This document shows positions 2,159 through 24,224 of a stretch of DNA of 31,946 nt, one piece after another (the stretch's first letter is position 1; each line of letters starts with the position of its first letter). The position numbers and the translations under genes are program-made. This stretch comes from a virus. The notes under the pieces are model-generated. The model made no database searches. It was not told where the DNA came from and worked only from the letters and a program-made list of their open reading frames with translations. The stretch is taken from the IMG/VR virus record IMGVR_UViG_3300025767_001435, positions 1 through 31,946 of that record, one strand, 5' to 3'.

Positions 2159-4906
2159 ATGCTAAATTTTACTAAGTTCTTTATGCAAGGCTTAAAAAAG
2201 ACACTTCGCTTACAAAGCGGAGTAAATTTTTCTTATAAAGGTCCGTGGGTACAACTATACCCAGGTACTATTATGGATGAATGGTACTATGGCGACTTTT
2301 GCGCAGTTGAATACACAATAGTAGCCGACCTAGGCGGACAAGACAAAGAAATTATAAAATGTCTTGTGATAGCAGACGTAGATAAAGCAAATATTACCGA
2401 ATACGGCAGAACTAATCTAGGAAGAGATTTAGTAGATATTACAGCACAAGTTAATTCATCTAAAGTTAGTATTATTATAAATCCTGCACTATCTGAAGAT
2501 AGTACGGCAAGTATAGGAGCAAAAGTAATTTACAGTGCTTCGTACTATCATAGCTTAAATGACATAGGGCAATCTACTACTGTAAGCTATCAGGCGCCTG
2601 CGCCAGTAGAAGCAGTAGCATCGTACGCAGTCACTCCTGCAGAAAACAACGTAAACGAAGGAAGCTCCGTAGTATTTAATGTTACGACAACTAATGTAGC
2701 TAACGGAACAACATTGTATTGGAGTGTTACAAACGCAGTTGACTTTAGTACATCAACCGGTAGCTTTACAGTTACAAATAACGCAGGTACATTTAGTGTT
2801 ACGCCAACTGCTGATGTTACTACAGAAGGTGTAGAAACATTTACTGCTAGTGTAAGAACAGATAGTGTAAGTGGAACAGTAGTTGCAACTTCGAGTGCAG
2901 TTACAATTAATGACACAAGTCTCTCTCCCATAGTACAAACTTATGCAGCAACTCCTGTAGCAGATAATATAGACGAAGGAAGCGCATTAACAATTAACGT
3001 TGCAACGGCTAATATTGCTAACGGAACAACATTGTATTGGACAGTTTCAACACCTGACGAATTTGACATAGTAAATGGTAGCTTTACAGTTACAAATAAC
3101 GCAGGTACATTTAGTGTTACTCCAGGGGCCGACGCACTTACGGAAGGTGTAGAAACATTTACTGCTAGTGTAAGAACAGGCAGTGTAAGCGGCACTATTG
3201 TAGCTACTACTGGTAACATTACAATTAATGACACAAGCATAACACCTTCGGGAATAATTTATAATGTAACTGTTGCAAATGGATCAAATATTTACGGCAC
3301 AGGCAACAAATACTACATATCAGGATTCGATGCTGTAAGTCCATCGTTAAATTTAATTGAAGGCCAAACATACGTATTTAGACAAAGCAATAGCTCAAAC
3401 GATACACATCAACTTAGATTTTCTACAACTCCTGACGGAACTTGGGGCGGCGGCGTAGAATATACATCTGGTGTTACTTTAGTAGGCACTGCTGGCAGTT
3501 TAGGTGCATACTCTCAAATTACAGTCGGAAATAATACACCAACGTTGTACTACTATTGTGTAAATCATAGCGGAATGGGTGGCACAGCAAATACACCAGC
3601 AGCATCAACACCAACTTACGATAGTATAAGTTCAGTAGCAAATGCTAACGAAGGCGATGTTGTAACATTTACACTTACAACACAAAATATAGATAATGGT
3701 ACAACTGTAGATTACACAATAACAGGTATTAATGCAGGCGATATATCTGCAGGCTTGCTTTCAGGCACCCTTACTGTAAATAATAATGCAGCAACTACAA
3801 GCATTACCCTTGCTAACGATCTTACTACTGAAGGTAGCGAAACGATGACGCTAACATTGGCAGCTATAGATAGTGCAGCAAATAGTACTGGAGCATTAAC
3901 AACTCAAACAATAATTGCAGATACAAGTACAGAAGCAGCAGAGACATATGCAGCAACACCGGCTGCTAATAGTATTAACGAAGGAACTGCATTAGCAGTT
4001 AGCGTTGCAACAACTAACGTACCAGATGCAACAACATTGTATTGGACTGTTACTAACTCTGGTGACTTTAATGTATTATCTGGCAGCTTTGTGATTACAA
4101 GCAATGTAGGAGCATTTAGCGTCACTCCAACTTCTGATGAACTAACAGAAGGTGCAGAAACATTCCAAATTCAAATTAGAACCGAAAGTGTTAGTGGCAC
4201 TATTGTAGAAACTACCAATAACATTACAATTAACGACACTAGTTTAACACCAATCGATCCTCCAACTTATGCAGCAACACCGGCTGCTAATAGTATTAAC
4301 GAGGGAAGTTCGCTAACAATTAATATTGCAACAACTAACGTACCGGATGCAACAACATTGTATTGGACTGCTACAAGCGCCAGCGACTTTACGAACTCAT
4401 CTGGCTCAGTTACAATTACAAATAATTCAGGATCATTTAATGTTTCCCCAATTGCTGACGCAACAACAGAAGGTGTAGAAACATTTACAATTAGTATAAG
4501 AACTGATAGTATCGGCGGCACCATTGTAGCTACTACTGATAACATTACAATTAATGACACAAGTATCTCACCAGCATTTATCGCAGACTATACAATAACA
4601 GTTACAAACAGCGGCAACAATTACTTGCTAACAGGTAATGACAGGAATGGCGGATTTACAAATAGTTCGCAACCTACACTAGCATACAACAATGGTGATC
4701 TAGTTCAATTTATTATAGATGCAGGTACGTCGGCTGTACATCCTTTCTATATTAAAACTGCACAAGGCGCAGGAACAGACAATCAAGCATCAGGAGTAGA
4801 CGGACAAGGTACAACAGAAGTTAATTGGACAATTGGAAGCACAGGAACATTCTATTATCAATGTTCAATACATGCCGCTATGAATAATACAATAACGGTA
4901 TCATAA
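2159..4906 (+). CDS. Repeat-rich virion adhesin/fibre protein with two cupredoxin-like domains
   Basis: 915 residues, Thr/Ser/Asn/Val-rich. Residues 1-150 form a unique head with no signal peptide. Five beta-sandwich repeats of about 100 residues follow, of Calx-beta-like type (NEGSxxxxxV, TLYWTV, TEGxETFT, ITINDTS): residues about 154-255, 261-360, 486-591, 597-696 and 703-802. Two cupredoxin-like domains interrupt and end the array, at about 365-480 and 808-915. Each carries a His followed later by C-x2-H-x2-M: H417, C467, H470, M473, and H861, C902, H905, M908. That is the type-1 copper ligand order, with amicyanin-like spacing. Position before two other fibre-like genes and the repeats suggest a tail fibre or decoration adhesin (inference). 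Start chosen for AGAGGT 7 bases upstream. Copper binding is predicted only. Confidence 0.75.
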   Translation: MLNFTKFFMQGLKKTLRLQSGVNFSYKGPWVQLYPGTIMDEWYYGDFCAVEYTIVADLGGQDKEIIKCLVIADVDKANITEYGRTNLGRDLVDITAQVNSSKVSIIINPALSEDSTASIGAKVIYSASYYHSLNDIGQSTTVSYQAPAPVEAVASYAVTPAENNVNEGSSVVFNVTTTNVANGTTLYWSVTNAVDFSTSTGSFTVTNNAGTFSVTPTADVTTEGVETFTASVRTDSVSGTVVATSSAVTINDTSLSPIVQTYAATPVADNIDEGSALTINVATANIANGTTLYWTVSTPDEFDIVNGSFTVTNNAGTFSVTPGADALTEGVETFTASVRTGSVSGTIVATTGNITINDTSITPSGIIYNVTVANGSNIYGTGNKYYISGFDAVSPSLNLIEGQTYVFRQSNSSNDTHQLRFSTTPDGTWGGGVEYTSGVTLVGTAGSLGAYSQITVGNNTPTLYYYCVNHSGMGGTANTPAASTPTYDSISSVANANEGDVVTFTLTTQNIDNGTTVDYTITGINAGDISAGLLSGTLTVNNNAATTSITLANDLTTEGSETMTLTLAAIDSAANSTGALTTQTIIADTSTEAAETYAATPAANSINEGTALAVSVATTNVPDATTLYWTVTNSGDFNVLSGSFVITSNVGAFSVTPTSDELTEGAETFQIQIRTESVSGTIVETTNNITINDTSLTPIDPPTYAATPAANSINEGSSLTINIATTNVPDATTLYWTATSASDFTNSSGSVTITNNSGSFNVSPIADATTEGVETFTISIRTDSIGGTIVATTDNITINDTSISPAFIADYTITVTNSGNNYLLTGNDRNGGFTNSSQPTLAYNNGDLVQFIIDAGTSAVHPFYIKTAQGAGTDNQASGVDGQGTTEVNWTIGSTGTFYYQCSIHAAMNNTITVS
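2620..4563 (+). repeat. Five Calx-beta-like domain repeats within the 915-aa gene
   Basis: Units lie at about 2620-2922, 2941-3237, 3616-3930, 3949-4245 and 4267-4563. A cupredoxin-like domain separates units 2 and 3, and unit 3 is the most divergent. DNA identity is high between neighbours: 44 bases are identical at 2759-2802 and 3077-3120, so units 1/2 and 4/5 look like recent duplications. Confidence 0.85.
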
Positions 4907-4919
4907 GGAAATTTAAAAA

Positions 4920-5465
4920 ATGACAGTCACGTATTCAAAATTTCAAACAGGCGACGGATTTAAGTCTCCGAGTCTAGATATAGATGCACTAGGTAACATT
5001 TCGGCTACATCACTTGACGTGTTATCGTTAAAAATAGACGGAGAAGTTTTATTTGGCATCGGAGCGCCTGGTGCTGTTGAAGGCGGACCTGTAACTTCGT
5101 TAGCTCCTAGTATCGTTAGTAGTAGTTTAACATCTGTAGGAACATTAACTGGGTTAACTGTTCAAGGAAATACTACTATTTCTAATGGACTAGTACAAAT
5201 TAATAGTTTGTCTACAGGTACGATAAATAATATTGATATAGGAGAGACTACACCTGGAAACGGTACGTTTGTTTCTCTAACAGCAACAACTGGAACTATT
5301 ACAACATTGAATTCGACAACGGCAACATTGGGAACAGCATCAGCAACAACAGTAACTTCGGGTACAGTTGTTTTAAATAATGCTCCAACAGCACTTAATC
5401 ATGCTACTACAAAAAGTTACGTTGATACACAAATTACTGCACTATCTATAGCACTCGGGATGTAA
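4920..5465 (+). CDS. Tail-fibre-like protein with C-terminal fibre motif
   Basis: 181 residues, rich in Thr, Ser, Gly and Leu, with repeated short hydrophobic/Thr patterns such as LTATTGTITTLNSTTATLG that suggest a beta-helical or triple-stranded shaft. The C-terminus contains PTALNHATTKSYVDTQI, the AxTKxYVDxxI-type element common near the ends of phage fibre and structural proteins, where it usually forms a trimeric helical segment. It lies 13 bases after the 915-aa gene with AAGGAA before the ATG, and 3 bases before the 2242-aa gene, so the three are probably co-translated. Role inferred: fibre or fibre-connector. The exact T4 counterpart is not recognised. Confidence 0.6.
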   Translation: MTVTYSKFQTGDGFKSPSLDIDALGNISATSLDVLSLKIDGEVLFGIGAPGAVEGGPVTSLAPSIVSSSLTSVGTLTGLTVQGNTTISNGLVQINSLSTGTINNIDIGETTPGNGTFVSLTATTGTITTLNSTTATLGTASATTVTSGTVVLNNAPTALNHATTKSYVDTQITALSIALGM

Positions 5466-5468
5466 AAA

Positions 5469-8400
5469 ATGGCAAAAACGCAAATAAAAAATTATGTATT
5501 TAAACCTGGTCTAGGAGTTCTTGATAATAGATATCCTAATGCACATGGTCTAATAACTGCTAATAAAACTTTCATACAGAAAGAAATGAGTGCTTATATT
5601 GCTGCCAAAGTTACAGCAGCCGCACAATATACACCCACAGCAGCAACATACAATCCTGCAACAGGTGTGTTAGAATTAACCATAGGCACACATAATTTTA
5701 ATGTTGGCGATGCAATTATAATTGCAGACGGTGGATTAACGTTTACCAATGCAAGCGCAGGCGCTGTTCCATTTTTTGATAAAGCATTAATAATTACAGC
5801 AGTTTCGGCGAATACTAGTGTTACAGTTAACGCAGGTATATCAACTGATCTCACTGCACACTCGTGGGTAAGCTCTGTAACAAATGCTACAAGAGATGTA
5901 TTTTATAATTATGTAAACGACAGTGTAGCAAAATGTGAAAGAGATACTGGGTATGTAATTGACGCATATTTAAAAGATCTACAATATGGCGGCAATGAAT
6001 ATTTAAAGAATGTTATTAAATACTATTGGGATCAAAATGTTGCACAAGTTGACGGCGACAGAGGCGCAGAACTTGCTGCCCACAACTTTATTGGTAGATT
6101 AATTACAGATTACATTTTACCGCAATCGGCGTACTCTGCATTAAATTCAGAAATAACCCAGTCGGGCGGCACAGCTACAGAAACGACTGCTCAATTTACG
6201 CCCACAGATGCAACATATACTCCGACAACCGGAGCAATGACATTAAGCATTGGAACTCATAGTCTTGCAGTTGGTAACGAAGTTTTTATTGCACCAGCTG
6301 GCATAACTTTTACTTGTGCGCTTGACGGCAATGCCACATTGCATCCGTATCCCAGAGGATCAGGTGTTCCTAATGACACAGGCAAAGATCCATTTTATTA
6401 TGCTCCTATTGAAATTACCGCAGTAACAGCAACTACTATTACAGTTAACATAGGCATTAGCTCAGATACTTCTGCGCATACATTTAGCAGTGCAACAGCA
6501 AATGCAGTAACGGCTGGACCTGCTGCTAAAATTAAAACTCTAGTATATAACACAGTAGATGTAATAGGCAACGGTCTTGCTGCAATGCCAACGCTAGTGC
6601 CGACAGGAGTAGGTAGTGTTAAAATACAAGGTAATTACAACTTAGAAGATTTTCTTTTAATTACTAACTCTAGTAAAAACGAAATTATATACAATTTTAG
6701 TGGCGCTGCTACAGGCGGTTATGTTACACAAGAAAAAGCAAGTGATACAGACTTTGTTAAATTTTTACAAGCAACAGATACTGTAGCTACCTTATTTTTA
6801 AATTATAACACAGCAACACATAGTTCAACTGACGAAATCCAAATATTTGTTGAAAATACTGAAAACGGTAAAAGTATAGTTTACACTAGGCCTTATGATT
6901 TTGGTACAGACTCTATTGAACGTCAGCGTATTGCAGCACCTTTATCAATGCTCGACGCTGACTTTGAGTACGGCTTGCAGCCAACTAAATGGGCAGCGAT
7001 TGGTACACTTAGGGGATATCCTTCAATATACGAAATTCCTGGAACAGACACCGCAGTTGCATCAGTAACAACAGATGCAAGTTCTGTTAATACATGGTTA
7101 CTTAATCTTACAGCAGACGGCACTACTAACTATACTGTAATAGGCAACGATAGAACAGGTAGTATATCTGGACCTGACCCTATTATTACCATGGTCGAAG
7201 GCGACACTTTGCAGATGATTAATAACTCAGGCTCTGGTCATCCTCTGTATATTAAAACGGTAGCAGGAACTGGTACTGGAAATCAAGTAACAACTAATAT
7301 CACTGGACAAGGTGCTATTTCTGGCGCAGCAGTTGAATGGACACCGCAAACGGGCGATGCTGGCATTTATTATTACCAATGTAGTAATCATGCAGCTATG
7401 TCAGGAACTATTATTGTACAAACAAATACTGCTGGGGCTGGCTCAGGTCAGTCGTTAATCACAGTAACAACAGTTAGTCCCCATGGATTTGCAGCAGGCA
7501 CACCATTTACAATTAAAGCTCTTGAAAATAGTATTAACGGAGCATCAAGAGCAGAAGGTAGTTTTGTAATTACAGATGTTCCTTCAACTACTTCCTTTAG
7601 ATACTACGCAAAAGCACAAGTCGGTGATACAAACGGTGATGTTTTAAGTACAACTTATACACAACTTAGACAAGGTGGATTCTATACAGGAGCCAATATC
7701 GGCTCTCCTGTGTTTACTGTAGCAACAAACGGTTCAGGCGGCACTATTGCTGTTGAACTTACAACTCCGATTGGATCAACAAATTTACCATATGATGGAC
7801 CAGCAGCAACAGTCGGAGCTCCTCTTAGCGGAGCTGGCATTGGAGCTGGAACACAAGTAACTAGTATTATCGACAATTCAGATGGCGGCGGCGAATACTT
7901 AACACCAGTAGTTGTTGGAGACTACAGTGCTGGCGTATCTACTATTACAGTAGAAGATGCTACTGGCATAGTTACTGAACTAGCAGCTAGCAATGGCACT
8001 GGCACAGCTACATTTATTGAAAATATTAACGGAACTGACTTGCAGTTTACTACTCCGTTTGCATCGGCAATTATTGGTAATAAAACAACATACACTGCTG
8101 TTTCTGGCACTAATGGAACATCTTCAGGATCGGGTGCAGAATTTACTATTTCAAGTACAGCTGGAACCTATGCAATTGATTCTATTACAAATCCTGGCAC
8201 AGGATATGCAGAAGGTGATAGACTTTTAGTAGATGGGGCTACCTTAAGTGGAGCGTCAGGCACTAACGATCTTGTTATAATAGTTGCATCTATTAGTGGT
8301 TCAGGTATAGCAACTACTACGCTAGAAGGTACAGGATATGACGGCTCGTCTACTATATCTTCATTGACTCCGACCGCTGATGGCGGCAGTGGAACCGATG

Positions 8401-11400
8401 CATCTTTTGATATTACATATCTAAATAATGTATATACTAATAATACTTTAAATGCTGCTGGAACTGGGTATAGCGTAAATGACGTCATAAGAATTAACGG
8501 AGCTTCTTTGAACGGCGACGAATCAAATTCAATAACCTATACAATTACTGGCATTGGCGGCAGCGGAGCAATTACAACATTTACTGTAGCACCAGGAGCA
8601 ACTGCACCGGATGCTAACGTATTCTATGGCGGCGTAGCTACTACAAGTAATACCATTGCAGGGGTCGACGCAATTGTTAATGTACAAAAAACCGGCACTG
8701 CATATTCGCTTTCTTTTAGTAATTTTGGAGGCACAGGATATGTTGTTGGTGAGACTTTTACAATTGCAGGAACTGAACTTGGCGGTGCAACACCAACAAA
8801 TGATGTCACTATAACCATTGATGCAGTAGACGGCGGAACAGGTGCAATAACTGCATCTAGTATAACTAGTGCAACTACTGGTGTTAACGGCGACAGTACT
8901 ACAATTCTTCCACAAAATGTTTTAGGATCTGGCGCAGATTTTGAAATTGTAATGACACCTAGCAGTACGTATGTTGTTAACATTAACAGCGGCGGCGCAG
9001 ATTATGGTCCTAATCAGACATTTACAATCTTAGGCACATCGTTATTTGGTGCCACTCCTGCTAATGATTTAACAATCACGATCGATACCGTTACCACTGG
9101 CGCTGTTGCTACCATAAGCGTAGCAGGAACAAGCACAGCAGGCGACGCTACGACTCTTGGTGTTGCACCACCTAATCAACCACAGGCTGGTTCTAGTGCA
9201 ACATTTAATATATTAAGAAATGCAGGCGGGTATACTGCATCTATTGCATCCGGCGGATCAGACTATGCTGTCGGAAACAAAATAATTGTTCCAGGAACAA
9301 GTCTCGGTGGTTCGACACCACAACATGACTTAACAATTGAAATTGATACTGTAAATTCCGGATTAATTACTGGAGTTAGTACATCTGCAGAATCTATAGG
9401 ATACCCAGGCGATCCGTTTACACTTATATGTACAGTGCAATTATCAGAACCTACAACTGCTGAAATTGCACTAGGTGCTGAGATACCGTTTACGGCACTA
9501 GCAACACTTGAATTAGAATTTACTTCAGCACATGGATTAGTTCCAGGTAGCACATTTATTGTTAATGTTACTTCAGATGAAGGTATTAACAATCATTCAA
9601 TTGCAAGTGGTCCTTTTATAGCGTCTGATATTCCTTCGATTACTAAACTAAGATATCAAGCTCGTTCAGCAGGATTTATTGATGTATCTTCGGATGCTAT
9701 ATCAGGTCAAGTTTATCCAAGACCAGACAGCTTCTTTGTTCACAGACCGTTTGACGGCGGCGTGCAGCTAGGCACAGGCGGCCCACAACACGGCGCACAG
9801 GCAATACGTCAGAGTAAAAAGTATATTCGTTACCAATCAGGTAAAGGTATTATGTATACAACTGGTGCGTTATTTGCTCCGAGTTATGATTTACGTAGTG
9901 TAACATCTAGTGGTGTTGAAGTCGGTGACTTGATTACAGTAGTAACTGATGATAATGATCACGGAGTACAAAAAGGCGGCATTATTAGATTGCTGGGCGT
10001 TGAAACTCCTGGATACAACAGTGGTGATGAAACTGCTGTGCCTCCTAAATTCGATTATGAAGTTGTTAATGTCGTTGACGAAAGAACATTCCAAATAAGA
10101 GCACAAAGGCGTTTAGGCGCAACTGAAGCTGTACTAGGATTTTCGGCAGCAATGACAGTAGTAAGCTGGCACGGTGCAACTGTGCGTTCGGGCATCTTCG
10201 ATGATCAAAACGGCATCTTCTGGGAATTTGACGGCACACAATTAAGTGTTGTACAACGTACAGGCACAAAACAACTTGCTGGAACAATTGCAGTTACAGT
10301 TGATAATAATTTGGTTACAGGAACCAATACTAGATTTGAAGATCAATTAAAAGCAGGCGATAGAATTATTATTAAAGGTATGACACATGTTGTATCACAC
10401 GTTCTTAACCAAACATCATGTACTGTAACACCAGATTGGAGAGGCACAGTTGACGTACTTGCTTCAAAGGCTAACTTAATTTCAGATAAGAAAGTAAAGC
10501 AATCAAACTTTAACTTAGATCGTTTAGACGGTACTGGTCCGAGTGGATATAATCTTGATATTGGTAAAATGCAGATGATTGGTATTCAGTACAGTTGGTA
10601 CGGTGCTGGATTTATCGACTTTATGCTACGTGGTGCAGATGGTAACTTTACATTTGCACATAGAATGCGTAACTCAAACGTTAATACAGAAGCATTCATG
10701 CGTTCAGGTAACTTGCCAGTGCGCTATGAAGTTAGTAATGAAGGCCCGAGCGGCAAAATAAAAACTGCAATGGATAGTAGTCAAACAACTGTAGTACTAG
10801 AAGATTCTAGTTTCTTTCCACCGGCTGGAACTATATACATTGATAATGAAATCATGCAGTTTTCTGGAAATAATAAAAATACAAATACACTTACAGGTGT
10901 AACTAGAGGCGCAACGTTTAGAAACTTCCAAGCAGGCGCCCAACGTAGTTATACAGCAGGAGCAGCCGAAGCGCATACTGCTAGAACAGGAGTTATACTA
11001 ATATCAAATACAATTACTCCGCTGATTAGTCACTGGGGTAGTGCATTCCTAACAGACGGCGGCTTTGACGAAGATCGAGGCTATATTTTCTCATACGCTG
11101 CGACAGGTGTTCCTATTAGTACTACCAAAAACACTGCATTTATGATTAGACTTGCACCTAGTGTTTCAAACGCACTAGTCGGAGACCTAGGTGAAAGAGA
11201 ACTACTAAACCGTGCGCAGTTACTATTACAAGGTCTTGAAATCACTTCAGATACCAGTACAGGTGGTATTGTTGTTCAGGGTGTACTTAATCCTCAAAAC
11301 TATCCACTTGATCCGGGTTCAGTTACTTGGTCAGGACTAAGTGGGGTTGCCCAAGGCGGACAGCCAAGTTTTGCACAAATTGCTCCAGGCGGCGGCACAA

Positions 11401-12197
11401 GTTGGGCAACCGGCGCAGGTACAACTGCAACTGCTGCTATTAGTAGTAGCATTGACACTGGTGCATTTTCTCCATTAGAGTTTGGTGCAGCAGAAAATAG
11501 TAGTCCAATTGATCTTACTAATACTGTTTATAATGCAGCTGGTCCTGTATACTCGGGTGTTGAAATCTATGAGTCAGACAGCGGCGGAGCATATACAGTA
11601 GCTGGAGAAACTTTCCTTGTTACATCTGTTAACGTTGGTGGAAGCTCAACAGATATCGCCTTCCGAAGCACACTTGGCAGAACTAGAAAAAGACAAAACT
11701 TTAGTACCAACCCGCCGAGTGTGTTCTTTAGACAGCCTTCTTATACTGGACTTACAAACAAGCTAATTTTTGCAAAAGCAGTGTGGGAAGCAGCCGGAGC
11801 AACTGAAGGTACTCCAGTTGCTACTAGTGATACAAATTGGCCGGCAGGTACTGCGGTATCTAGTGTAGCATTGAAACAGCTTGGTGCAACTCAATTTTAC
11901 GAAGTAACTTTTAACCAATCATCTACTAGTGCGTTAAGCGTAGGAAACAATGTTACGTTTGACTTTTCTGAGCCACCGTTTGCTCAACCTGGTGAAACTG
12001 TATTCTCATTTATTGCAAATCCAGGAGAACGTTCAACTCTGGACTTATCGCAGTTGAAGGAACTTACTAATACGCCACTCGGTGGCAGAGGCACATATCC
12101 AAATGGCCCTGATGTACTAGCAATTAACGTTTATAAGATTAGTGGTACTGATGTTGCAGCTAACATCATTCTAAAATGGGGTGAAGCGCAGGCTTAA
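5469..12197 (+). CDS. Giant virion structural/fibre protein with repeats and a cupredoxin-like domain
   Basis: 2242 residues, the largest gene here. Order seen: N-terminal KNYVFKPGLGVLDNRYPNAH; a beta-domain at about 51-137 that recurs at 241-347 (TxATYxPxTG, LxIGTH, ITVNIGISSDTSAH); between them a helical segment (NYVNDSVAKCERDTGYVIDA). A cupredoxin-like domain at about 541-650 has H591, C638, H641, M644. A module with SPHGFAAGTPF at about 663 recurs as SAHGLVPGSTF near 1355. Five glycine-rich repeats of about 87 residues lie at about 908-1300. A long C-terminal part begins near 1420 (FFVHRPFDGG, RQSKKYIRYQSGKG). No enzyme motif was recognised. The family resembles large structural proteins of marine T4-like phages; a baseplate-attached host-contact fibre is inferred. 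Translation is probably coupled to the upstream gene, since the ATG lies 3 bases after its stop and no strong ribosome-binding site is seen. Confidence 0.75.
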   Translation: MAKTQIKNYVFKPGLGVLDNRYPNAHGLITANKTFIQKEMSAYIAAKVTAAAQYTPTAATYNPATGVLELTIGTHNFNVGDAIIIADGGLTFTNASAGAVPFFDKALIITAVSANTSVTVNAGISTDLTAHSWVSSVTNATRDVFYNYVNDSVAKCERDTGYVIDAYLKDLQYGGNEYLKNVIKYYWDQNVAQVDGDRGAELAAHNFIGRLITDYILPQSAYSALNSEITQSGGTATETTAQFTPTDATYTPTTGAMTLSIGTHSLAVGNEVFIAPAGITFTCALDGNATLHPYPRGSGVPNDTGKDPFYYAPIEITAVTATTITVNIGISSDTSAHTFSSATANAVTAGPAAKIKTLVYNTVDVIGNGLAAMPTLVPTGVGSVKIQGNYNLEDFLLITNSSKNEIIYNFSGAATGGYVTQEKASDTDFVKFLQATDTVATLFLNYNTATHSSTDEIQIFVENTENGKSIVYTRPYDFGTDSIERQRIAAPLSMLDADFEYGLQPTKWAAIGTLRGYPSIYEIPGTDTAVASVTTDASSVNTWLLNLTADGTTNYTVIGNDRTGSISGPDPIITMVEGDTLQMINNSGSGHPLYIKTVAGTGTGNQVTTNITGQGAISGAAVEWTPQTGDAGIYYYQCSNHAAMSGTIIVQTNTAGAGSGQSLITVTTVSPHGFAAGTPFTIKALENSINGASRAEGSFVITDVPSTTSFRYYAKAQVGDTNGDVLSTTYTQLRQGGFYTGANIGSPVFTVATNGSGGTIAVELTTPIGSTNLPYDGPAATVGAPLSGAGIGAGTQVTSIIDNSDGGGEYLTPVVVGDYSAGVSTITVEDATGIVTELAASNGTGTATFIENINGTDLQFTTPFASAIIGNKTTYTAVSGTNGTSSGSGAEFTISSTAGTYAIDSITNPGTGYAEGDRLLVDGATLSGASGTNDLVIIVASISGSGIATTTLEGTGYDGSSTISSLTPTADGGSGTDASFDITYLNNVYTNNTLNAAGTGYSVNDVIRINGASLNGDESNSITYTITGIGGSGAITTFTVAPGATAPDANVFYGGVATTSNTIAGVDAIVNVQKTGTAYSLSFSNFGGTGYVVGETFTIAGTELGGATPTNDVTITIDAVDGGTGAITASSITSATTGVNGDSTTILPQNVLGSGADFEIVMTPSSTYVVNINSGGADYGPNQTFTILGTSLFGATPANDLTITIDTVTTGAVATISVAGTSTAGDATTLGVAPPNQPQAGSSATFNILRNAGGYTASIASGGSDYAVGNKIIVPGTSLGGSTPQHDLTIEIDTVNSGLITGVSTSAESIGYPGDPFTLICTVQLSEPTTAEIALGAEIPFTALATLELEFTSAHGLVPGSTFIVNVTSDEGINNHSIASGPFIASDIPSITKLRYQARSAGFIDVSSDAISGQVYPRPDSFFVHRPFDGGVQLGTGGPQHGAQAIRQSKKYIRYQSGKGIMYTTGALFAPSYDLRSVTSSGVEVGDLITVVTDDNDHGVQKGGIIRLLGVETPGYNSGDETAVPPKFDYEVVNVVDERTFQIRAQRRLGATEAVLGFSAAMTVVSWHGATVRSGIFDDQNGIFWEFDGTQLSVVQRTGTKQLAGTIAVTVDNNLVTGTNTRFEDQLKAGDRIIIKGMTHVVSHVLNQTSCTVTPDWRGTVDVLASKANLISDKKVKQSNFNLDRLDGTGPSGYNLDIGKMQMIGIQYSWYGAGFIDFMLRGADGNFTFAHRMRNSNVNTEAFMRSGNLPVRYEVSNEGPSGKIKTAMDSSQTTVVLEDSSFFPPAGTIYIDNEIMQFSGNNKNTNTLTGVTRGATFRNFQAGAQRSYTAGAAEAHTARTGVILISNTITPLISHWGSAFLTDGGFDEDRGYIFSYAATGVPISTTKNTAFMIRLAPSVSNALVGDLGERELLNRAQLLLQGLEITSDTSTGGIVVQGVLNPQNYPLDPGSVTWSGLSGVAQGGQPSFAQIAPGGGTSWATGAGTTATAAISSSIDTGAFSPLEFGAAENSSPIDLTNTVYNAAGPVYSGVEIYESDSGGAYTVAGETFLVTSVNVGGSSTDIAFRSTLGRTRKRQNFSTNPPSVFFRQPSYTGLTNKLIFAKAVWEAAGATEGTPVATSDTNWPAGTAVSSVALKQLGATQFYEVTFNQSSTSALSVGNNVTFDFSEPPFAQPGETVFSFIANPGERSTLDLSQLKELTNTPLGGRGTYPNGPDVLAINVYKISGTDVAANIILKWGEAQA
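5620..6510 (+). repeat. Duplicated N-terminal beta-domain in the 2242-aa gene
   Basis: The segment at about 5620-5880 and the one at about 6188-6510 encode the same domain: TPTAATYNPATG with LTIGTH in the first copy, TPTDATYTPTTG with LSIGTH in the second. The second copy contains an extra loop with HPYPRGSG. A helical spacer separates them. Confidence 0.7.
8190..9370 (+). repeat. Five glycine-rich tandem repeats in the 2242-aa gene
   Basis: Units recur about every 260-270 bases, starting near 8193, 8455, 8727, 8986 and 9249. Shared core: G-G/T-x-Y-x-x-G/N-D/Q-x-x-x-I-x-G-T-x-L-x-G-A/S-T-P-x-N-D-L-T-I-x-I-D. Examples are FGGTGYVVGETFTIAGTELG and SGGSDYAVGNKIIVPGTSLG. Confidence 0.8.
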
Positions 12198-12205
12198 TGC
12201 GCTTC
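12183..12205. terminator. Hairpin at the convergent gene ends, both stops in its loop
   Basis: GAAGCGCA at 12183-12190 pairs perfectly with TGCGCTTC at 12198-12205. The 7-base loop GGCTTAA holds the stop codon of the 2242-aa gene and, on the other strand, the stop of the GmhB-like gene. The stem is GC-rich for this genome. No T-run follows on either strand, so it may act as a 3'-end stabiliser or a weak bidirectional terminator. Confidence 0.5.
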
Positions 12206-12808
12206 TATCCAGTCTGCAAAAGAACTAAGATCATCAAATATGATGGTCTTTTTCTTTATGTCGCGGTAGGTAAATTTGTTTAATTGTTGTTCAGTTTCTA
12301 ATCCGTATCCAGTACGAACTAGTATAGGCGTTGCGCCTATTTTATGAGCAGCTTTTAGGTCACTCATTTTATCACCTACAAAATACCCTTTATTAAACTT
12401 AATTGTAGGATTTTCTTTTTCGCATCTTTTAAACATGCCGGTATTAGGCTTGGCATACATATCGCTTTTATGACTACTTGCACTATAATATATAGCATCC
12501 ACACTAGGACATCCTGCTATGCCTAATAATTCGAACATATATCGATGAACATTTTCTACGTCTTCAATGTGCATTAATCCTTTATTAATGCCGCCTTGGT
12601 TAGTAATAATAGCAATTTTATGACCGTGTTTACGAAGTCTGCCAACTGCTTCTAAACTACCTTCAATTGGTTCAAAATCATTAGGATGAGTGACATATGT
12701 TCCTAAGTCGCGATTTAAAACTCCATCTCTGTCTAGTCCTATTACACACTTTGTATAATTTTCTGTAGACAGTAACGGCGCCGCTTGATTAATATATCTA
12801 TTAGACAT
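12194..12808 (-). CDS. gmhB: D-glycero-D-manno-heptose 1,7-bisphosphate phosphatase-like HAD enzyme
   Basis: 204 residues from the chosen ATG. All HAD motifs are intact: GLDRDGVLN with D26 and D28, IITNQGG with T69, K120-P121, and VGDKMSDLKAA with D146. The layout matches GmhB, which removes the C7 phosphate of heptose 1,7-bisphosphate between the two HldE steps. The usual GmhB zinc loop (CxH...CxC) is absent; in its place is YYSASSHKSDMYAKP without cysteine. A GTG at 12829 would add 7 residues. The ATG at 12808 is preferred because it makes the ATGTCTAA overlap with the upstream cupin stop, a coupling arrangement. It is last in the hldE-hldD-cupin-gmhB operon. Histidinol-phosphatase-type activity is an alternative, but the neighbours favour heptose. 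Confidence 0.85.
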   Translation of the reverse strand: MSNRYINQAAPLLSTENYTKCVIGLDRDGVLNRDLGTYVTHPNDFEPIEGSLEAVGRLRKHGHKIAIITNQGGINKGLMHIEDVENVHRYMFELLGIAGCPSVDAIYYSASSHKSDMYAKPNTGMFKRCEKENPTIKFNKGYFVGDKMSDLKAAHKIGATPILVRTGYGLETEQQLNKFTYRDIKKKTIIFDDLSSFADWIEAH

Positions 12809-13193
12809 CTTCTGTGCTCTGACTATCACCTGCAGAAATTCTGTAATTATCTTCTACACTATCAGGTGTGCTAACTTCAGTAATGCTACTATTTGCTTCT
12901 ATTGCAATAAGTTGATGCGGCTGTAACGGGGGATTGTGCCATACATCACCTTCTTTAAGTTCTTTTTCGTACATGCTTGCATCCTTAGTATCAATCCATT
13001 TTACCAGAAATCTTCCGTTATTTACAAACCACGTTTCGTCTTTTTCTCTATGAAAGTGCATACTAAATTTTGATCCGGGTCTCTCAAATACCATAATCTT
13101 ACCGCAATATTTTTTATTAGTTGCCCAGATTAGTTCGTACCCCCATCCTTTTTTAATAAACCCTTCTAGTCTTGTTGGTTCGTTATTTTCCAT
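12801..13193 (-). CDS. Cupin, mannose-6-phosphate isomerase-like
   Basis: 130 residues, one cupin domain. The first cupin motif is textbook: G40-x5-H46-x-H48-x4-E53-x6-G60. The second is represented by G82 and H93 (PPLQPHQL). His and Glu should hold a metal ion. GWGYELIW at the start and the ITEVSTPDSVEDNYRI tail resemble the C-terminal domain of type II phosphomannose isomerases (WGxxE..., IEVQxGxxxGEDDIVR). It overlaps hldD by 11 bases and the gmhB-like gene by 8, so it belongs to the sugar-nucleotide operon. Reaction unknown: a sugar-phosphate isomerase or epimerase is most likely. It sits where a GmhA-type isomerase would be useful, but no homology to GmhA is visible. Confidence 0.8.
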   Translation of the reverse strand: MENNEPTRLEGFIKKGWGYELIWATNKKYCGKIMVFERPGSKFSMHFHREKDETWFVNNGRFLVKWIDTKDASMYEKELKEGDVWHNPPLQPHQLIAIEANSSITEVSTPDSVEDNYRISAGDSQSTEDV

Positions 13194-14001
13194 TGATATA
13201 ATCCTCTATTTTAATCCATTGCATGTCTACTACACTATTTAAATTAGTTAAGTTTGCACAAGTGTACTTTTGGTATTGAGACTTTATGTTTTCTGGCATA
13301 GGTGTGTACATAATGCCGGCGCTGTGTTTGTTGGCAATAGTTTCTGCTACAGTTTGAAAACTTACAGGATTGCCTGTGCCTACATTAAATATACCTGATT
13401 GATCTACATCAAACATTTTCTCATGTAATTTGCAAATATCGTCTACGCAAACAAAGTCTCTAAGGTATTTGTCGCTATCTTCAAACAATGTAATCAGGCC
13501 ATCTTCGCTTGCTTGATTTGTAAACTTAGTATAAGGACTCGCTTGATCGCCTTTGTGTTCTTCGCCTTCTCCATAAACGTTAAAGTAACGGAAGCCTTGT
13601 ATTTTAATTTGAAATTCTTCTATGTATTGATTGATAAATCTATCAAACATATACTTGCTCCATGCATACGGCGATTGCGGAAGTAATGATCCATCTTCTG
13701 TAAAGTGGTCAGTTGGGCCGTATACACTTGCACTAGATGCGTATTGTAAGTTAGTACCAAAGTTTTCGCATACTTGTGCAAGACGCACACTAAATTCAAA
13801 GTTCTGTTCTAGTATTTGATTTACATCTGTATATGTAGTTGAGCTAATAGCGCCTAAGTGTATGCACCAATCGTAATCTTCTGTACTAGGAATAACACCA
13901 GGTTGCCATTCCCATCCTTCAACTTCGTGTCCTTTTTGCTGCAAATAGCTTGCAACATTTTTGCCAATAAAACCTTCGTGTCCTGTAACTAATATTCTCA
14001 T
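13183..14001 (-). CDS. hldD: ADP-L-glycero-D-manno-heptose 6-epimerase
   Basis: 272 residues, an extended short-chain dehydrogenase. Rossmann glycine motif G7-x2-G10-x2-G13 (VTGHEGFIG), catalytic Y112-x3-K116 (YAWSK) and serine in YASSASVYG. Family-specific blocks match HldD: LGAISSTT, FRYFNVYGEGEEHKG, ASPYTKF, RDFVCVDDI and GIFNVGTGNPVSFQTVAE. HldD inverts C6 of ADP-D-glycero-D-manno-heptose using bound NADP, the last step to ADP-L-glycero-D-manno-heptose. E. coli HldD has about 310 residues; this copy is shorter, mainly before position 50. It starts in an ATGA overlap with hldE and its end overlaps the cupin by 11 bases. Confidence 0.93.
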   Translation of the reverse strand: MRILVTGHEGFIGKNVASYLQQKGHEVEGWEWQPGVIPSTEDYDWCIHLGAISSTTYTDVNQILEQNFEFSVRLAQVCENFGTNLQYASSASVYGPTDHFTEDGSLLPQSPYAWSKYMFDRFINQYIEEFQIKIQGFRYFNVYGEGEEHKGDQASPYTKFTNQASEDGLITLFEDSDKYLRDFVCVDDICKLHEKMFDVDQSGIFNVGTGNPVSFQTVAETIANKHSAGIMYTPMPENIKSQYQKYTCANLTNLNSVVDMQWIKIEDYINGK

Positions 14002-15137
14002 TTGCTTGCCTCTATAATATTTGTAGTTGAATAACCTTCAACTGTAGGAACTAGATGCACTTCTGCTAAATCATGTCCTACCACTTGTTCTACTGTGTAG
14101 TCGCCGCCTTTAACAATAACATGCGGTTTTAAATCTTTAATTAATTTGTATGGAGTATCATCGTCAAATACAATTACTTGGTCTATCCAGGGTAGTATTT
14201 CTAACTGTGCTTTACGTTTAATTACATTGTTAACAGGGCGTGTTTCACCTTTAAGACGTTTTACACTAGCATCGCTGTTGATGCCTACAATTAGTTTTGT
14301 ACCGAGTGTCTTAGCTTCTGCTAAGAGCTCAAAATGACCCTTGTGCAGTATATCAAACACTCCGTTAGTAAACACTATACGATCCTCAATATCACCTACA
14401 GTAAGCGTATATGTGCCTACGTGTTTAACTGCTTCTCTAGAACCTTTAACTGCAAGTTCTAAACAATGTTTGTGATCGTACCCTCTAGTTAGGCCATATA
14501 CAAATGCTGCTAAGAAACAATCTCCTGCACCTGTAACATCTGACACTTCTACACGTTCTACAGGAATATCATAAACTTCTCCATCAATTTTAGCAATAAC
14601 TGGATTGCCTGCTTGTGTAATAATAATATTACCTTGCCAATTAATAAAGTATTCTTGAAATTCTTTTTCGTTAGGTTTTACTAGCCATGCACCTTCGTAA
14701 TGATTTGCGTGTGTCTTAGGATCAACGATTACTTTGCATCCAAATTTGTTAAAGTGTTTAATAAGTTCTACGGACTCGTCTAAGTAGCCTTTGTTATAGT
14801 CACTCATTATAATATAATCGTATGCACTAAAATCAATTTCACGCACTCGATCTAATACTTCTACACCATCTGAATGTATGTCGTTATCTATGCGTGTGAT
14901 ATAATGTCCGTCACACATCACACGAGTCTTGATGCTTACTGGTTCATCTTCAGCATTAAACAACATAGAGTCTACACCTAGACTTAATAGATTAGAATGC
15001 ACTAGCCCGGCGCCGCCGATAGTTTCTTCTGTACGTTCGTGTGTAACTACAGGAACAGGTGCTTCTGGACTCAGGCGTGTGCTTGTTCCGTAAATATATC
15101 TATCAAGTATTACATCGCCAATTACTAAAACTTTCAT
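13998..15137 (-). CDS. hldE: Bifunctional heptose-7-phosphate kinase / heptose-1-phosphate adenylyltransferase
   Basis: 379 residues with both HldE domains. Kinase (PfkB/ribokinase fold), residues 1-245: VIGDVILDRYIYG, RLSPEAPVPVV, GGAG, VDPK and V-T-G203-A-G-D206, where D206 is the expected base. Cytidylyltransferase-fold domain, about 254-379: FTNGVFDILHKGH with H265-x-G-H268, NSDASVKRLKGETRPVN, VKGGDYT and GYSTTNII. It phosphorylates heptose 7-phosphate at C1 and, after the GmhB step, adds AMP. It is about 100 residues shorter than E. coli HldE (477); the losses are mostly in the kinase domain after GGAG and in the inter-domain linker, while the catalytic landmarks remain. Its ATG lies 6 bases after a consensus sigma70 -10 element. 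It heads the four-gene overlapping operon. Confidence 0.94.
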   Translation of the reverse strand: MKVLVIGDVILDRYIYGTSTRLSPEAPVPVVTHERTEETIGGAGLVHSNLLSLGVDSMLFNAEDEPVSIKTRVMCDGHYITRIDNDIHSDGVEVLDRVREIDFSAYDYIIMSDYNKGYLDESVELIKHFNKFGCKVIVDPKTHANHYEGAWLVKPNEKEFQEYFINWQGNIIITQAGNPVIAKIDGEVYDIPVERVEVSDVTGAGDCFLAAFVYGLTRGYDHKHCLELAVKGSREAVKHVGTYTLTVGDIEDRIVFTNGVFDILHKGHFELLAEAKTLGTKLIVGINSDASVKRLKGETRPVNNVIKRKAQLEILPWIDQVIVFDDDTPYKLIKDLKPHVIVKGGDYTVEQVVGHDLAEVHLVPTVEGYSTTNIIEASK

Positions 15138-15143
15138 ATCACT

Positions 15144-15172
15144 ATTATACTTTCTTTTGGGTTAACTGTCAA
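15144..15172 (-). promoter_or_regulatory. Consensus sigma70 promoter for the hldE operon
   Basis: On the minus strand TTGACA (15172-15167) is followed by a 17-base spacer and TATAAT (15149-15144), a perfect match in both boxes and spacing. The hldE ATG (15137-15135) comes after 6 more bases, so its A is at the expected +1. There is no room for a Shine-Dalgarno. The promoter overlaps the 3' end of the Nudix gene. Confidence 0.88.
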
Positions 15173-15602
15173 GAAGATTTATAGTTTTAAATACAGTTTC
15201 TAATTTAGTTAAATTGACTTTGCTTTGTAGTGTATTGCGAAGTCCGTGATGTAACGGCTTTGGCCACTTAGTAAAACTACACCATGCATATCCGTCGTGT
15301 TCGTTATTAAGTGTAGGAATAAATTCTTGCTCAACTACACACAGGTATGTATGAAAGTGGAATTTACTATCAGGCGAAACAAAGCTCTCTAAAGGCAGTG
15401 TCTTTTTAATTGCAGGAAATTGTCCAATTTCTTCTTGTATTTCTCGCTTGAGACCTTCCCATGGAGTTTCAGCACCCTCGTTAGTACCTCCAACAAGTCC
15501 CCATAAATTAGCCCGTTTTCCTTGAGCTCTATGAAGAAATAAAAATCTATTCGTATCTAATGTATAAAACAGCGCACCGCTACATGTAATTTGATTGTTC
15601 AT
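15162..15602 (-). CDS. Nudix hydrolase
   Basis: 146 residues with a perfect Nudix box, G-x5-E-x7-R-E-U-x-E-E-x-G-U, at residues 39-61 (G39, E45, R53, E54, E57, E58, G60); the glutamates bind the metal that assists hydrolysis of a nucleoside diphosphate linked to another moiety. LFLHRAQ and LWGLVGG before the box are typical of the fold. It follows gp15 by 8 bases and precedes hldE. T4 also encodes a Nudix enzyme (NudE), but orthology cannot be judged here. The substrate is unknown; sugar-nucleotides or dinucleotide polyphosphates are possible. Confidence 0.9.
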   Translation of the reverse strand: MNNQITCSGALFYTLDTNRFLFLHRAQGKRANLWGLVGGTNEGAETPWEGLKREIQEEIGQFPAIKKTLPLESFVSPDSKFHFHTYLCVVEQEFIPTLNNEHDGYAWCSFTKWPKPLHHGLRNTLQSKVNLTKLETVFKTINLLDS

Positions 15603-20894: not shown

Positions 20895-23800
20895 ATGGCA
20901 TTAGTATCACCAGGCGTAGAAGTCAATGTAATTGACGAAAGTTTCTACACTCCAGCAGCAGCTGGCACGGTACCTATGATCTTTGTTGCTACAGCTAGTA
21001 ATAAAACTAAAAGTAGCGGCACAGGCACAGCAGTAGGTACAACAAAAGCAAATGCAGGCAAACCATATTTGATCACTAGTCAGCGAGAGCTTGGTGAAAC
21101 ATTTGGCGATCCGGTATTTTATAGCGACAACAACGGCAATATGATCCACGGCGGCGAGCTTAACGAGTACGGCCTACAAGCTGCTTACTCTGTACTAGGC
21201 GTTTCAAATCGTGCATACGTTGTTCGTGCAGACTTAGACACAACAGAACTAACAGCAAGTGCAACAGCACCAGGCGGTGAGCCTGCAAATGGCGCTTACT
21301 GGTTTGACACTTCAACTAGTAACTACGGTATCCTACAATGGAATGGCGCAGGCATTAATACTATAGGTGGACAGACGTTTACTACAAAAACACCAACAGT
21401 GTTAACAGTAGATACTGATCTAATATCAGGTGTTGGATCAGCTCCAAAAGCATCAATTGGTGCAATTGGCGATTATGCAATCGACGCAAATGATACAATG
21501 AATCGTTTGTACTACAAAACACCAGGGTACGGTACAACTGCTCAGAGAGCAACTAACGTAGGTACTTGGGTAGAAGTAGGCAGTGATGCATGGAAAGCAA
21601 GTTGGGCAGCAACCCGCGGCACAGCAACAAATCCTGCACTAACTACTAGCGATTCAATTACAATTAACACTCAAAATGTTCCATTAACAGCAGGCACAGA
21701 CATTGCCGCTTTAGTTACAATCATTAATGCAGCAGGCGTTGCAGGCGTAACAGCAGCACTAGTTGATGGTTCGATTGAAATATATGGCAATTCGCTTAGT
21801 GAATCAAATGGTTCAGTTGCAGATGGCAAAGTTGCACTAGCAGCAGGAACTGGAGATTTGTTGACAGACTTAGGTCTAGTAGCAGGCACTTATAGTTCAG
21901 CTAGATTAGAAGCAGCACCACACACTGCGGTACCTGCATTTAAAACAGCAGATACAAGTTCAGCACCATCAGGTAGTATTTGGATCAAAACAACTACTCC
22001 AAATGGCGGAGCAAAACTAAGTGTTAAGCAGTATAATACAGCTACTCAGCTATGGTCAACTGTAAATACACCAATTTACACCACACCAGAAGCTGCAATT
22101 TACGGCTTAGATAAAACGGGTGGCGGCGCCAATATGCTTGCAGGCGCACTTTATGCAAAAGTTAATGTAGACGAGCTTGCTAATCCAATTGGAAATTACA
22201 AAGTTTATACAAGAGCAGCAGCAGGAGCAACCAGCATTACTGGTGCAGTAATTGGAGCAACGGGCGTAGCAGCAGCTACATATACGTTTACTTTAACTGA
22301 AACTAGAGCAAATAGTGCAGCACATTCGACTAGTTTTGGTGTATCTATTACTACAGCAGGTTCAAGTGCAGATGCAGAATTACTAGCAGCAGCAATTAAT
22401 GCTAAGGGAATGACAAATGTTGTAGCACTAGTTGACTCACAAAATAGAGTAGTGATACAGCACAAGCTAGGTGGCGATATTGAAATCGTCGATACTGACA
22501 GTGGTTTAGCAGGATTTGGTTTTGCAGCAGCAACAACAGCTAACTTATATGTTGGCCCAAATGCAACTGGGTTAGTTGCTTCGAACTGGAAACCACTAGC
22601 GTACACATCATCTGGCAACGTTCCATTAAGTTTGGCCGCAGATGGTCAGCTATGGTACAGTAGTGTTGTTGACGAAGTTGACATCCTAGTACACAATGGC
22701 GATGCATTTGTTGGTTTAAACTATGTAGGCGGCACTGGCGTATCAGCAGATTCAAGTCCATATAGTGGTACTGATGCTGCTGGACCTCAAGTAGCAGCTA
22801 CAGCACCAACTTTACAGTCAACAGGTGATGCGCTTGTAAATGGTGATATTTGGGTAAGCACAGCAGACGTTGAAAACTATCCAGCAATTTACCGTTGGAA
22901 TGCAGACTTAACTACACCGGCTTGGATACTACTTGATAAAGCAGACCAATCTACAGAAAACGGCGTACTATTTGCAGATGCACGTGAAGGTGACACAGGC
23001 GGAACAGCAGTAGATGCGCCTAGTGCAACTATTGCAGAAATGCTTGTAAGTGATTATGTAGACACAGATGCTCCGGATCCAGCACTATATCCAAAAGGCA
23101 TGTTACTGTGGAATCTACGTAAGAGTGGATTCAATGTTAAGCGTTTTGAGCGTAACTATGTGGACACAACTGCTAAAAACATTCGTCAAGGCGGAGAAAC
23201 AGGCCCATCAATGGCAGCTTACTACCCACATCGTTGGGTTACTGATTCAGGAAATCAAGCAGATGGTTCAGGTAGCTTTGGGCGCCATGCACAGCGTAAG
23301 AGCGTTGTACAAGCACTACAGGCACTTGTTAACGGCAACCAAGAAATACGTGACGAAGAAAGTCGTCAGTTTAACTTGTTGGCTGCTCCGGGATATCCAG
23401 AGCTAATTGGCGAAATGATCACACTAAACTATGACAGACGCTTAACGGCATTTGTTGTTGGTGACACTCCATTCCGCTTAACTCCAGACGCAACTTCATT
23501 AAATGAATGGGCAACTAACGTTAAACTAGCACTTGAAGATAACGATGACGGTGCAGTGAGCTTTGATGAGTACATGGCTATGTATTACGGTTCAGGCTTT
23601 ACAAGTGATAATGCAGGCAACAACATTGTTGTTCCGCCAAGCCACATGGCGCTACGTACTATTATACTAAACGACCAAGTTGCTTTCCCCTGGTTTGCTC
23701 CGGCAGGAACACGACGCGGTGGTGTAAGTAATGCTACAAGTTCAGGTTATATTACTAGCGAAGGCGAATTTAAGTCAGTAGCATTAAATACTGGACAGCG

Positions 23801-24224
23801 TGATACGCTTTACTCAAATGCAATTAATCCGATTACGTTCCTAGCAGGAGCAGGACTTGTTGTATTTGGACAAAAGACTCGTGCAAGAAACGCAAGTGCA
23901 TTGGATCGTGTTAACGTAGCACGTTTAACTGTATACTTACGTGGACAGCTAGAGTTGTTAGCTAAACCATACTTGTTTGAGCCAAATGACAAGATCACAA
24001 GAGATCAAGTTAAAGCAGCAGCAGATGCATTGTTACTAGAACTAGTAGCACTACGTGCATTGTATGACTTCTTAGTAGTATGTGATGAATCAAATAACAC
24101 ACCGGCAAGAATCGATCGTAATGAACTATACTTAGACATTGCTATTGAGCCAGTAAAAGCTATTGAGTTTATCTACATTCCATTAAGAATTAAGAACACA
24201 GGTGAAATTGCAGCACTAGGTTAA
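20895..24224 (+). CDS. gp18: Tail sheath protein, T4 gp18-like, with large insertion
   Basis: 1109 residues, against 659 in T4. The N-terminus MALVSPGVEVNVIDESFYTP and the block YLITSQRELGETFGDPVFY to VVRADLDTTEL are typical sheath sequence. The C-terminus, from about residue 700, is also canonical: KGMLLWNLRKSGFNVKRFE, VDTTAKNIRQGG, INPITFLAGAGLVVFGQKTR, RVNVARLTVYLRGQLELLAK and FIYIPLRIKNTGEI. Between about 120 and 690 lies an insertion of repeated elements of the form GxxWxxT...Y.xxNG (AYWFDTSTSNYGILQWNGAG, GDIWVSTADVENYPAIYRWN). In T4 the extra domains of gp18 face outward, so this insertion probably decorates the sheath surface. Late promoter and AGGAG precede the gene and a terminator follows it. 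Confidence 0.92.
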   Translation: MALVSPGVEVNVIDESFYTPAAAGTVPMIFVATASNKTKSSGTGTAVGTTKANAGKPYLITSQRELGETFGDPVFYSDNNGNMIHGGELNEYGLQAAYSVLGVSNRAYVVRADLDTTELTASATAPGGEPANGAYWFDTSTSNYGILQWNGAGINTIGGQTFTTKTPTVLTVDTDLISGVGSAPKASIGAIGDYAIDANDTMNRLYYKTPGYGTTAQRATNVGTWVEVGSDAWKASWAATRGTATNPALTTSDSITINTQNVPLTAGTDIAALVTIINAAGVAGVTAALVDGSIEIYGNSLSESNGSVADGKVALAAGTGDLLTDLGLVAGTYSSARLEAAPHTAVPAFKTADTSSAPSGSIWIKTTTPNGGAKLSVKQYNTATQLWSTVNTPIYTTPEAAIYGLDKTGGGANMLAGALYAKVNVDELANPIGNYKVYTRAAAGATSITGAVIGATGVAAATYTFTLTETRANSAAHSTSFGVSITTAGSSADAELLAAAINAKGMTNVVALVDSQNRVVIQHKLGGDIEIVDTDSGLAGFGFAAATTANLYVGPNATGLVASNWKPLAYTSSGNVPLSLAADGQLWYSSVVDEVDILVHNGDAFVGLNYVGGTGVSADSSPYSGTDAAGPQVAATAPTLQSTGDALVNGDIWVSTADVENYPAIYRWNADLTTPAWILLDKADQSTENGVLFADAREGDTGGTAVDAPSATIAEMLVSDYVDTDAPDPALYPKGMLLWNLRKSGFNVKRFERNYVDTTAKNIRQGGETGPSMAAYYPHRWVTDSGNQADGSGSFGRHAQRKSVVQALQALVNGNQEIRDEESRQFNLLAAPGYPELIGEMITLNYDRRLTAFVVGDTPFRLTPDATSLNEWATNVKLALEDNDDGAVSFDEYMAMYYGSGFTSDNAGNNIVVPPSHMALRTIILNDQVAFPWFAPAGTRRGGVSNATSSGYITSEGEFKSVALNTGQRDTLYSNAINPITFLAGAGLVVFGQKTRARNASALDRVNVARLTVYLRGQLELLAKPYLFEPNDKITRDQVKAAADALLLELVALRALYDFLVVCDESNNTPARIDRNELYLDIAIEPVKAIEFIYIPLRIKNTGEIAALG

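Follow-up and report, generated by a model that had tools for sequence, protein, structure and literature searches.

Metal in phage tails has so far been discussed mainly as iron, along with the part that phage-borne iron might play in the iron chemistry of the ocean, and iron sites with HxH motifs are on record for T4 gp37 and for the fibres of marine phages (the 'Ferrojan Horse' proposal; PMC11705849). The copper proteins closest to the domains described here are plastocyanin (PF00127), amicyanin, which is a free periplasmic protein encoded with methylamine dehydrogenase genes, and nitrite reductase (NirK), a multidomain enzyme with a type-2 site. Stellacyanins, which have an axial Gln ligand and a different loop, are plant proteins. 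The open-access literature (subscription papers and InterPro lay outside the scope of the search) yielded no account of phage tail domains of the copper, cupredoxin or plastocyanin type, and the conserved copper site predicted here for cyanophage tail proteins, including the gp9 connector, is undescribed in the literature searched. PMC8115048 deals with viral nirK, which is an unrelated gene.

The whole stretch of DNA analysed here, referred to as the window, comprises the 31,946 bases of a virus record. It encodes sheath, tail tube, head-closure and terminase proteins and thus represents a contractile-tailed phage. The 915-aa protein under study (2159..4906, + strand) was defined by its open reading frame, its repeats and matches to PHROG tail and unknown-function families. 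It consists of an N-terminal part (residues ~1-150), the beta repeats R1-R2, cupredoxin domain 1, the repeats R3-R5 and the C-terminal cupredoxin domain 2; its N-terminal 154 residues gave zero matches in INPHARED. It is followed by a 181-aa ORF with no significant family match (4920..5465, +) and by the gene for a 2242-aa virion structural protein (5469..12197, +; phrog_5838, 840 bits), which bears a third cupredoxin domain. The reading of the 915-aa product as a fibre-like phage protein, made in the earlier note, agrees with its position in a phage structural gene cluster, its tail neighbourhood and its tail-protein relatives (phrog_30742, phrog_677, neighbouring genes and annotated relatives). 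A match of residues 601-636 (3959-4066) to PF18134, the AGS_C sensor domain (E=3e-8), was read as a match to the beta repeats and not as the mark of a defence protein; this above-cut-off score is probably spurious and a trap for automated defence-gene annotation. Elsewhere in the window, the tail sheath protein (20895-24224, +) measures 1109 aa and is far longer than the T4 sheath, genes for a cysteine dioxygenase, a nucleotide-sugar epimerase, an HldE-like and a NUDIX protein lie amid the tail genes (12194-15602, -), and a NodU-like carbamoyltransferase gene is found at the left edge (2-1555, +). These genes for the dioxygenase, epimerase, HldE-like, NUDIX and NodU-like proteins are sugar-modification cargo.

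Domain 1 (residues 362-483; 3242..3607, +) was delimited by AF2 prediction, Foldseek and alignment A2, and domain 2 (residues 805-915; 4571..4903, +) by AF2, Foldseek and profile matches. The upstream His ligand is H417 (3407..3409) in domain 1, where it lies in an HQLRF motif 50 residues before the Cys, and H861 (4739..4741) in domain 2, where it lies in HPFYIK, 41 residues before the Cys. The remaining ligands are arranged in the loops C467-x2-H470-x2-M473 (3557..3577) and C902-x2-H905-x2-M908 (4862..4882), respectively. In both domains, the upstream His falls in an invariant column, and the Cys and His of the loop are invariant as well, the Met nearly so. The entire protein contains four Cys, five His and six Met residues, and past residue 150 each His (417, 470, 861, 905) and each Cys (467, 902) is a proposed ligand. 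Since His and Cys are this scarce, and since ~1e-4 C-x2-H-x2-M motifs are expected from the composition of the protein against the two that are present, the two sites are not a product of chance.

Both domains were predicted by AF2 to be beta-sandwiches, with a pLDDT of 97.6 for domain 1 and 97.5 for domain 2. In Foldseek searches against the PDB, their best matches were cupredoxins (probability 1.00, TM-scores 0.5-0.64). Domain 2 retrieved nitrite reductase 2dv6 first (E=5e-5), followed by rusticyanins, plastocyanin and amicyanin, while domain 1 retrieved 2dv6 along with multicopper oxidases, ascorbate oxidase among them, its E-values being weaker (1.5e-3). The moderate TM-scores would be as for a divergent branch of the cupredoxins. 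When the PDB was searched with an HMM of the 38-member alignment A1, copper nitrite reductases, a two-domain laccase, plastocyanins, pseudoazurin and amicyanins were obtained (E down to 2.4e-6), together with unrelated weak matches such as ribosomal L31 and Fabs at E ~0.01 and above; in the A1 profile alignments, the ligands of the domains fell on those of plastocyanin 2plt. Searched as a single sequence, domain 2 had nitrite reductase 2vmj as its sole PDB match (E=0.013), a protein that we take to be a loop-engineered nitrite reductase and in which the loop CTPHPFM is spaced as in amicyanin. NCBIfam models of plastocyanin, amicyanin, rusticyanin and Cu-nitrite reductase match several members of the alignment. 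An assignment of the window domains to Pfam at the curated cut-off was discarded, as the matches to Copper-bind and Cu-oxidase_2 (E=0.07 for the latter and domain 2) were sub-threshold; relative to the PF00127 cut-off of 21.2 bits, domain 3 scored 16.9 bits, and domains 1 and 2 had no match. The earlier note had proposed a full type-1 ligand set with an amicyanin-type loop in two cupredoxin domains. All eight residues are present at the claimed numbers in the 915-aa ORF, the ligands align with those of relatives and of plastocyanin, and the proposed fold was recovered by structure prediction and an automated fold search that placed cupredoxins at the top. It is very likely that the domains have a cupredoxin fold and that their site is intact.

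Domain 3 (7086..7430, +), within the 2242-aa ORF, came to light when all frames were scanned and when domain 2 was used as a query against the window itself. It shares 47% identity with domain 2 (E=6e-19), and its ligands H591 (7239-7241), C638 (7380-7382), H641 (7389-7391) and M644 (7398-7400) again include a C-x2-H-x2-M loop, which is hence present in all three domains of the window. The two sites counted earlier do exist in the 915-aa protein, but the number was an understatement, given three domains at the locus and the recurrence of the module in the tails of marine phages. The entire 915-aa architecture was found at 67% identity in two further loci (L004 and L005), each with a domain-3 gene downstream. 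In L004 (ORF 6221-8371), domain 3 reads YYYQSSNDVNM and lacks both the Cys and the second His, either because the site has been lost or through an error in the sequence.

Among 38 relatives, five residues never vary (G42, H57, Y96, C98 and H101 in the numbering of domain 2). The Met column contains Met in 34 cases, Gln in three and Ala in one, in which the Met is shifted one residue on. As the codons at these positions vary synonymously, the residues are held by selection. Because the loci of these relatives were fetched partly with peptide patterns containing the ligands, the residues were recounted on phage isolates found by profile. Here, H-C-H-M was obtained for 30 of the 33 domains spanning the four ligand columns, which are among the most conserved, and an intact site was present in 29 of 43 isolate domains (non-redundant at 70% identity) as well as in all 12 cellular representatives. 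The remaining isolate domains are partial matches or copies devoid of the Cys-His-Met loop, mostly at two gene positions: the second module of a ~1387-aa baseplate protein (~1387-1713 aa; L109/L114, L112, L155, L193, L198, L199) and a ~495-aa protein (L111, L160, L195, L197, L200). An axial Gln replaces the Met (C-x2-H-x2-Q) in L087, L091, L095, L173 and L176, and the loop of L076 is one residue longer (C-x2-H-x3-M).

The occurrence of loop-less copies in the same phages indicates that the fold is viable without metal, even though most copies still keep the whole site. Together with the missing Cys and His of L004 domain 3, these metal-less copies in cyanophage baseplate and ~495-aa proteins would suit a fold retained as a mere beta-sandwich scaffold, with the ligands as a relic or as packing residues in a metal-free virion. 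Such a virion is rather improbable, however, given the high conservation of the ligand columns relative to the rest of the domain, the replacement of Met mainly by Gln, itself a natural copper ligand, the uniformly intact cellular representatives and the exclusive use of His and Cys as ligands in most of the 915-aa protein. In vitro, metals other than copper can occupy type-1 sites, and cupredoxins produced recombinantly often carry Zn, so that a real site could be occupied in nature by Zn, Ni or solely Cu(I). We consider this unlikely, since His-Cys-His-Met with an occasional Gln is the classical copper set and no alternative ligand pattern was seen among the relatives. Binding of copper by the window domains is predicted as probable.

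Relatives were identified by tblastn in 319 (domain 1) and 326 (domain 2) INPHARED records, nearly all from marine cyanophages; with the domain 1 query only, additional relatives were retrieved from fibres of Pelagibacter and Methylophilales phages. The genes concerned are annotated as tail fibre, proximal tail fibre, baseplate wedge subunit, gp9 connector, virion structural protein or hypothetical protein, and a related S-TIM5 protein as 'virion structural protein and packaging'. In P-HM2 (locus L120) and MED4-213 (M4QD42), the cupredoxin-bearing proteins carry an immunoglobulin/V-set annotation (PF07686), which is probably a misannotation. The public names of the domains are 'hypothetical', 'tail fiber' or 'immunoglobulin domain', of which the first and the last would need correcting. 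The first 18 isolate phages were picked for having a match and are therefore uninformative on prevalence. The cyanomyoviruses Syn9, P-SSM4 and S-SM1, chosen without pre-selection, gave 4-5 profile matches each, one of them per phage in a 406-415-aa ORF that is gp9 in relatives. No match at E<=1e-3 was obtained for T4, KVP40, the freshwater cyanophages S-CRM01 and Ma-LMM01, the T7-like P-SSP7 and Syn5, or the marine pelagiphage HTVC008M, so that many but not all marine phages carry the module. A predicted fold like that of domain 1 is also seen in small 'beta-sandwich proteins' from giant viruses of the pithovirus- and marseillevirus-like kind (BFVD A0A481Z6J5, A0A481Z7Q7, A0A481YVH3).

The cupredoxin module forms the C-terminus of the gp9 baseplate connector in S-SSM5, S-RIM2, Syn19, Syn9, S-SM1 and P-SSM4 (L105, L106, L141, L189-L191). 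As the T4 gp9 connector is annotated as the trigger of sheath contraction, this position would be compatible with a redox trigger or sensor, in which fibre or baseplate would change conformation when, at the cell surface, the copper is exchanged or switches between Cu(II) and Cu(I). Type-1 sites are rigid, however, and little altered by reduction, and the module is also found in short-tailed, sheathless pelagiphages, which makes a role of this kind improbable. Position likewise bears on the idea of a bait, a copper counterpart of the 'Ferrojan Horse', whereby the bound metal would be recognised by a copper-uptake or other surface protein of the host. The domain is often C-terminal, with 38 of 66 IMG/VR domains ending <=15 residues from the stop codon, a placement that is usual for a distal domain, and an iron precedent has been proposed for marine phage fibres (PMC11705849). 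Set against this, several copies are internal or reside in baseplate proteins, away from the tips, type-1 copper is mostly buried and no host receptor is known, so that a bait function appears doubtful.

A search of 84,980 species genomes with domain 1, which as a single-domain query reaches close relatives only, returned four loci. One of them (L161) shares a phage contig with a gene for a capsid protein, the second (L162) encodes a cadherin-plus-cupredoxin protein and adjoins transporter and dioxygenase genes, the third (L163) lies within a repeat-rich adhesin-like protein and the fourth (L164) bears DUF4214. The genome containing L163 has four copies of the module, one of which is inside an open frame of 10,091 aa; this repeat-rich frame is located on contig C5 of the marine Bacteroidetes genome G003 (L163, L167). 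Profile searches of two bacterial orders were positive for four of 148 genomes in one order and three of 146 in the other, and the matches included small single-domain forms and lipoprotein-like forms, but some of the loci look phage-like. Plasmids gave no relatives. Phage tails thus have the module in common with a few surface or secreted proteins of marine bacteria.

Electron transfer is the usual role of single-domain blue-copper proteins, and plastocyanin (petE) is among the cyanophage-only genes, being present in 10 genomes (PMC3037559), so that the domains might act as an electron carrier that the virion brings along or the host cell expresses. The domains are, however, fused into large, repeat-rich virion proteins encoded in structural gene clusters, and they are also present in phages of SAR11 and Methylophilales hosts. 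Given their place inside large structural proteins, this role is very unlikely.

On balance, the leading view is that these are genuine cupredoxin domains with predicted type-1 copper sites, serving as structural modules of host-facing virion proteins (fibres and the baseplate connector). The apo-domains would fold during assembly in the copper-poor cytosol, and each would acquire one copper after lysis, from the lysate or from seawater. By joining the C-terminal Cys-His-Met loop to the strand with the upstream His, the metal would harden the terminal beta-sandwich, whose exposed loops could then serve as an adhesive surface. Copper would in this case be structural, like the iron in the tip of T4 gp37, and not part of an electron-transport chain, an assignment that we hold to be about evenly balanced, with a slight lean in its favour. 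It is not required for the fold in every copy, as seen from the metal-less copies in the same phages and the loss in domain 3 of L004. The three domains and the recurrence of the module in tail and baseplate proteins of marine phages suggest that the presence of copper in phage particles has been overlooked. More tentatively, and with less than even likelihood, marine cyanophages and some pelagiphages may regularly build copper proteins into their tails, with several type-1 modules per genome, including that of gp9, which would receive their copper after lysis and be required for stability, adsorption or triggering. If copper tails were the rule, infectivity would be tied to the copper content of seawater, and phages would constitute an oceanic copper ligand.

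Compared with known systems, the phage domains resemble amicyanin and plastocyanin in their predicted beta-sandwich, their His-Cys-His-Met set and the length of the amicyanin C-x2-H-x2-M loop, but they score below the PF00127 cut-off, are fused in large virion proteins and have no known electron-transfer partner. In contrast to the free amicyanin, those of the window are embedded in a phage structural protein. The cupredoxin domains of NirK are the best PDB matches in both fold and sequence, whereas the phage domains represent the type-1-like module only. A stellacyanin-like Gln occupies the Met position in three relatives of the phage domains, while the window domains have Met. Immunoglobulin-like domains are also recurrent beta-sandwiches of phage tails, but without a His/Cys/His/Met site. 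The iron of T4 gp37 and marine fibres and the phage cupredoxins are alike in placing metal in host-facing fibre proteins; they differ in that gp37-type iron is held between the chains of a trimer via HxH, whereas the predicted copper site of the phage cupredoxins lies within one folded domain.
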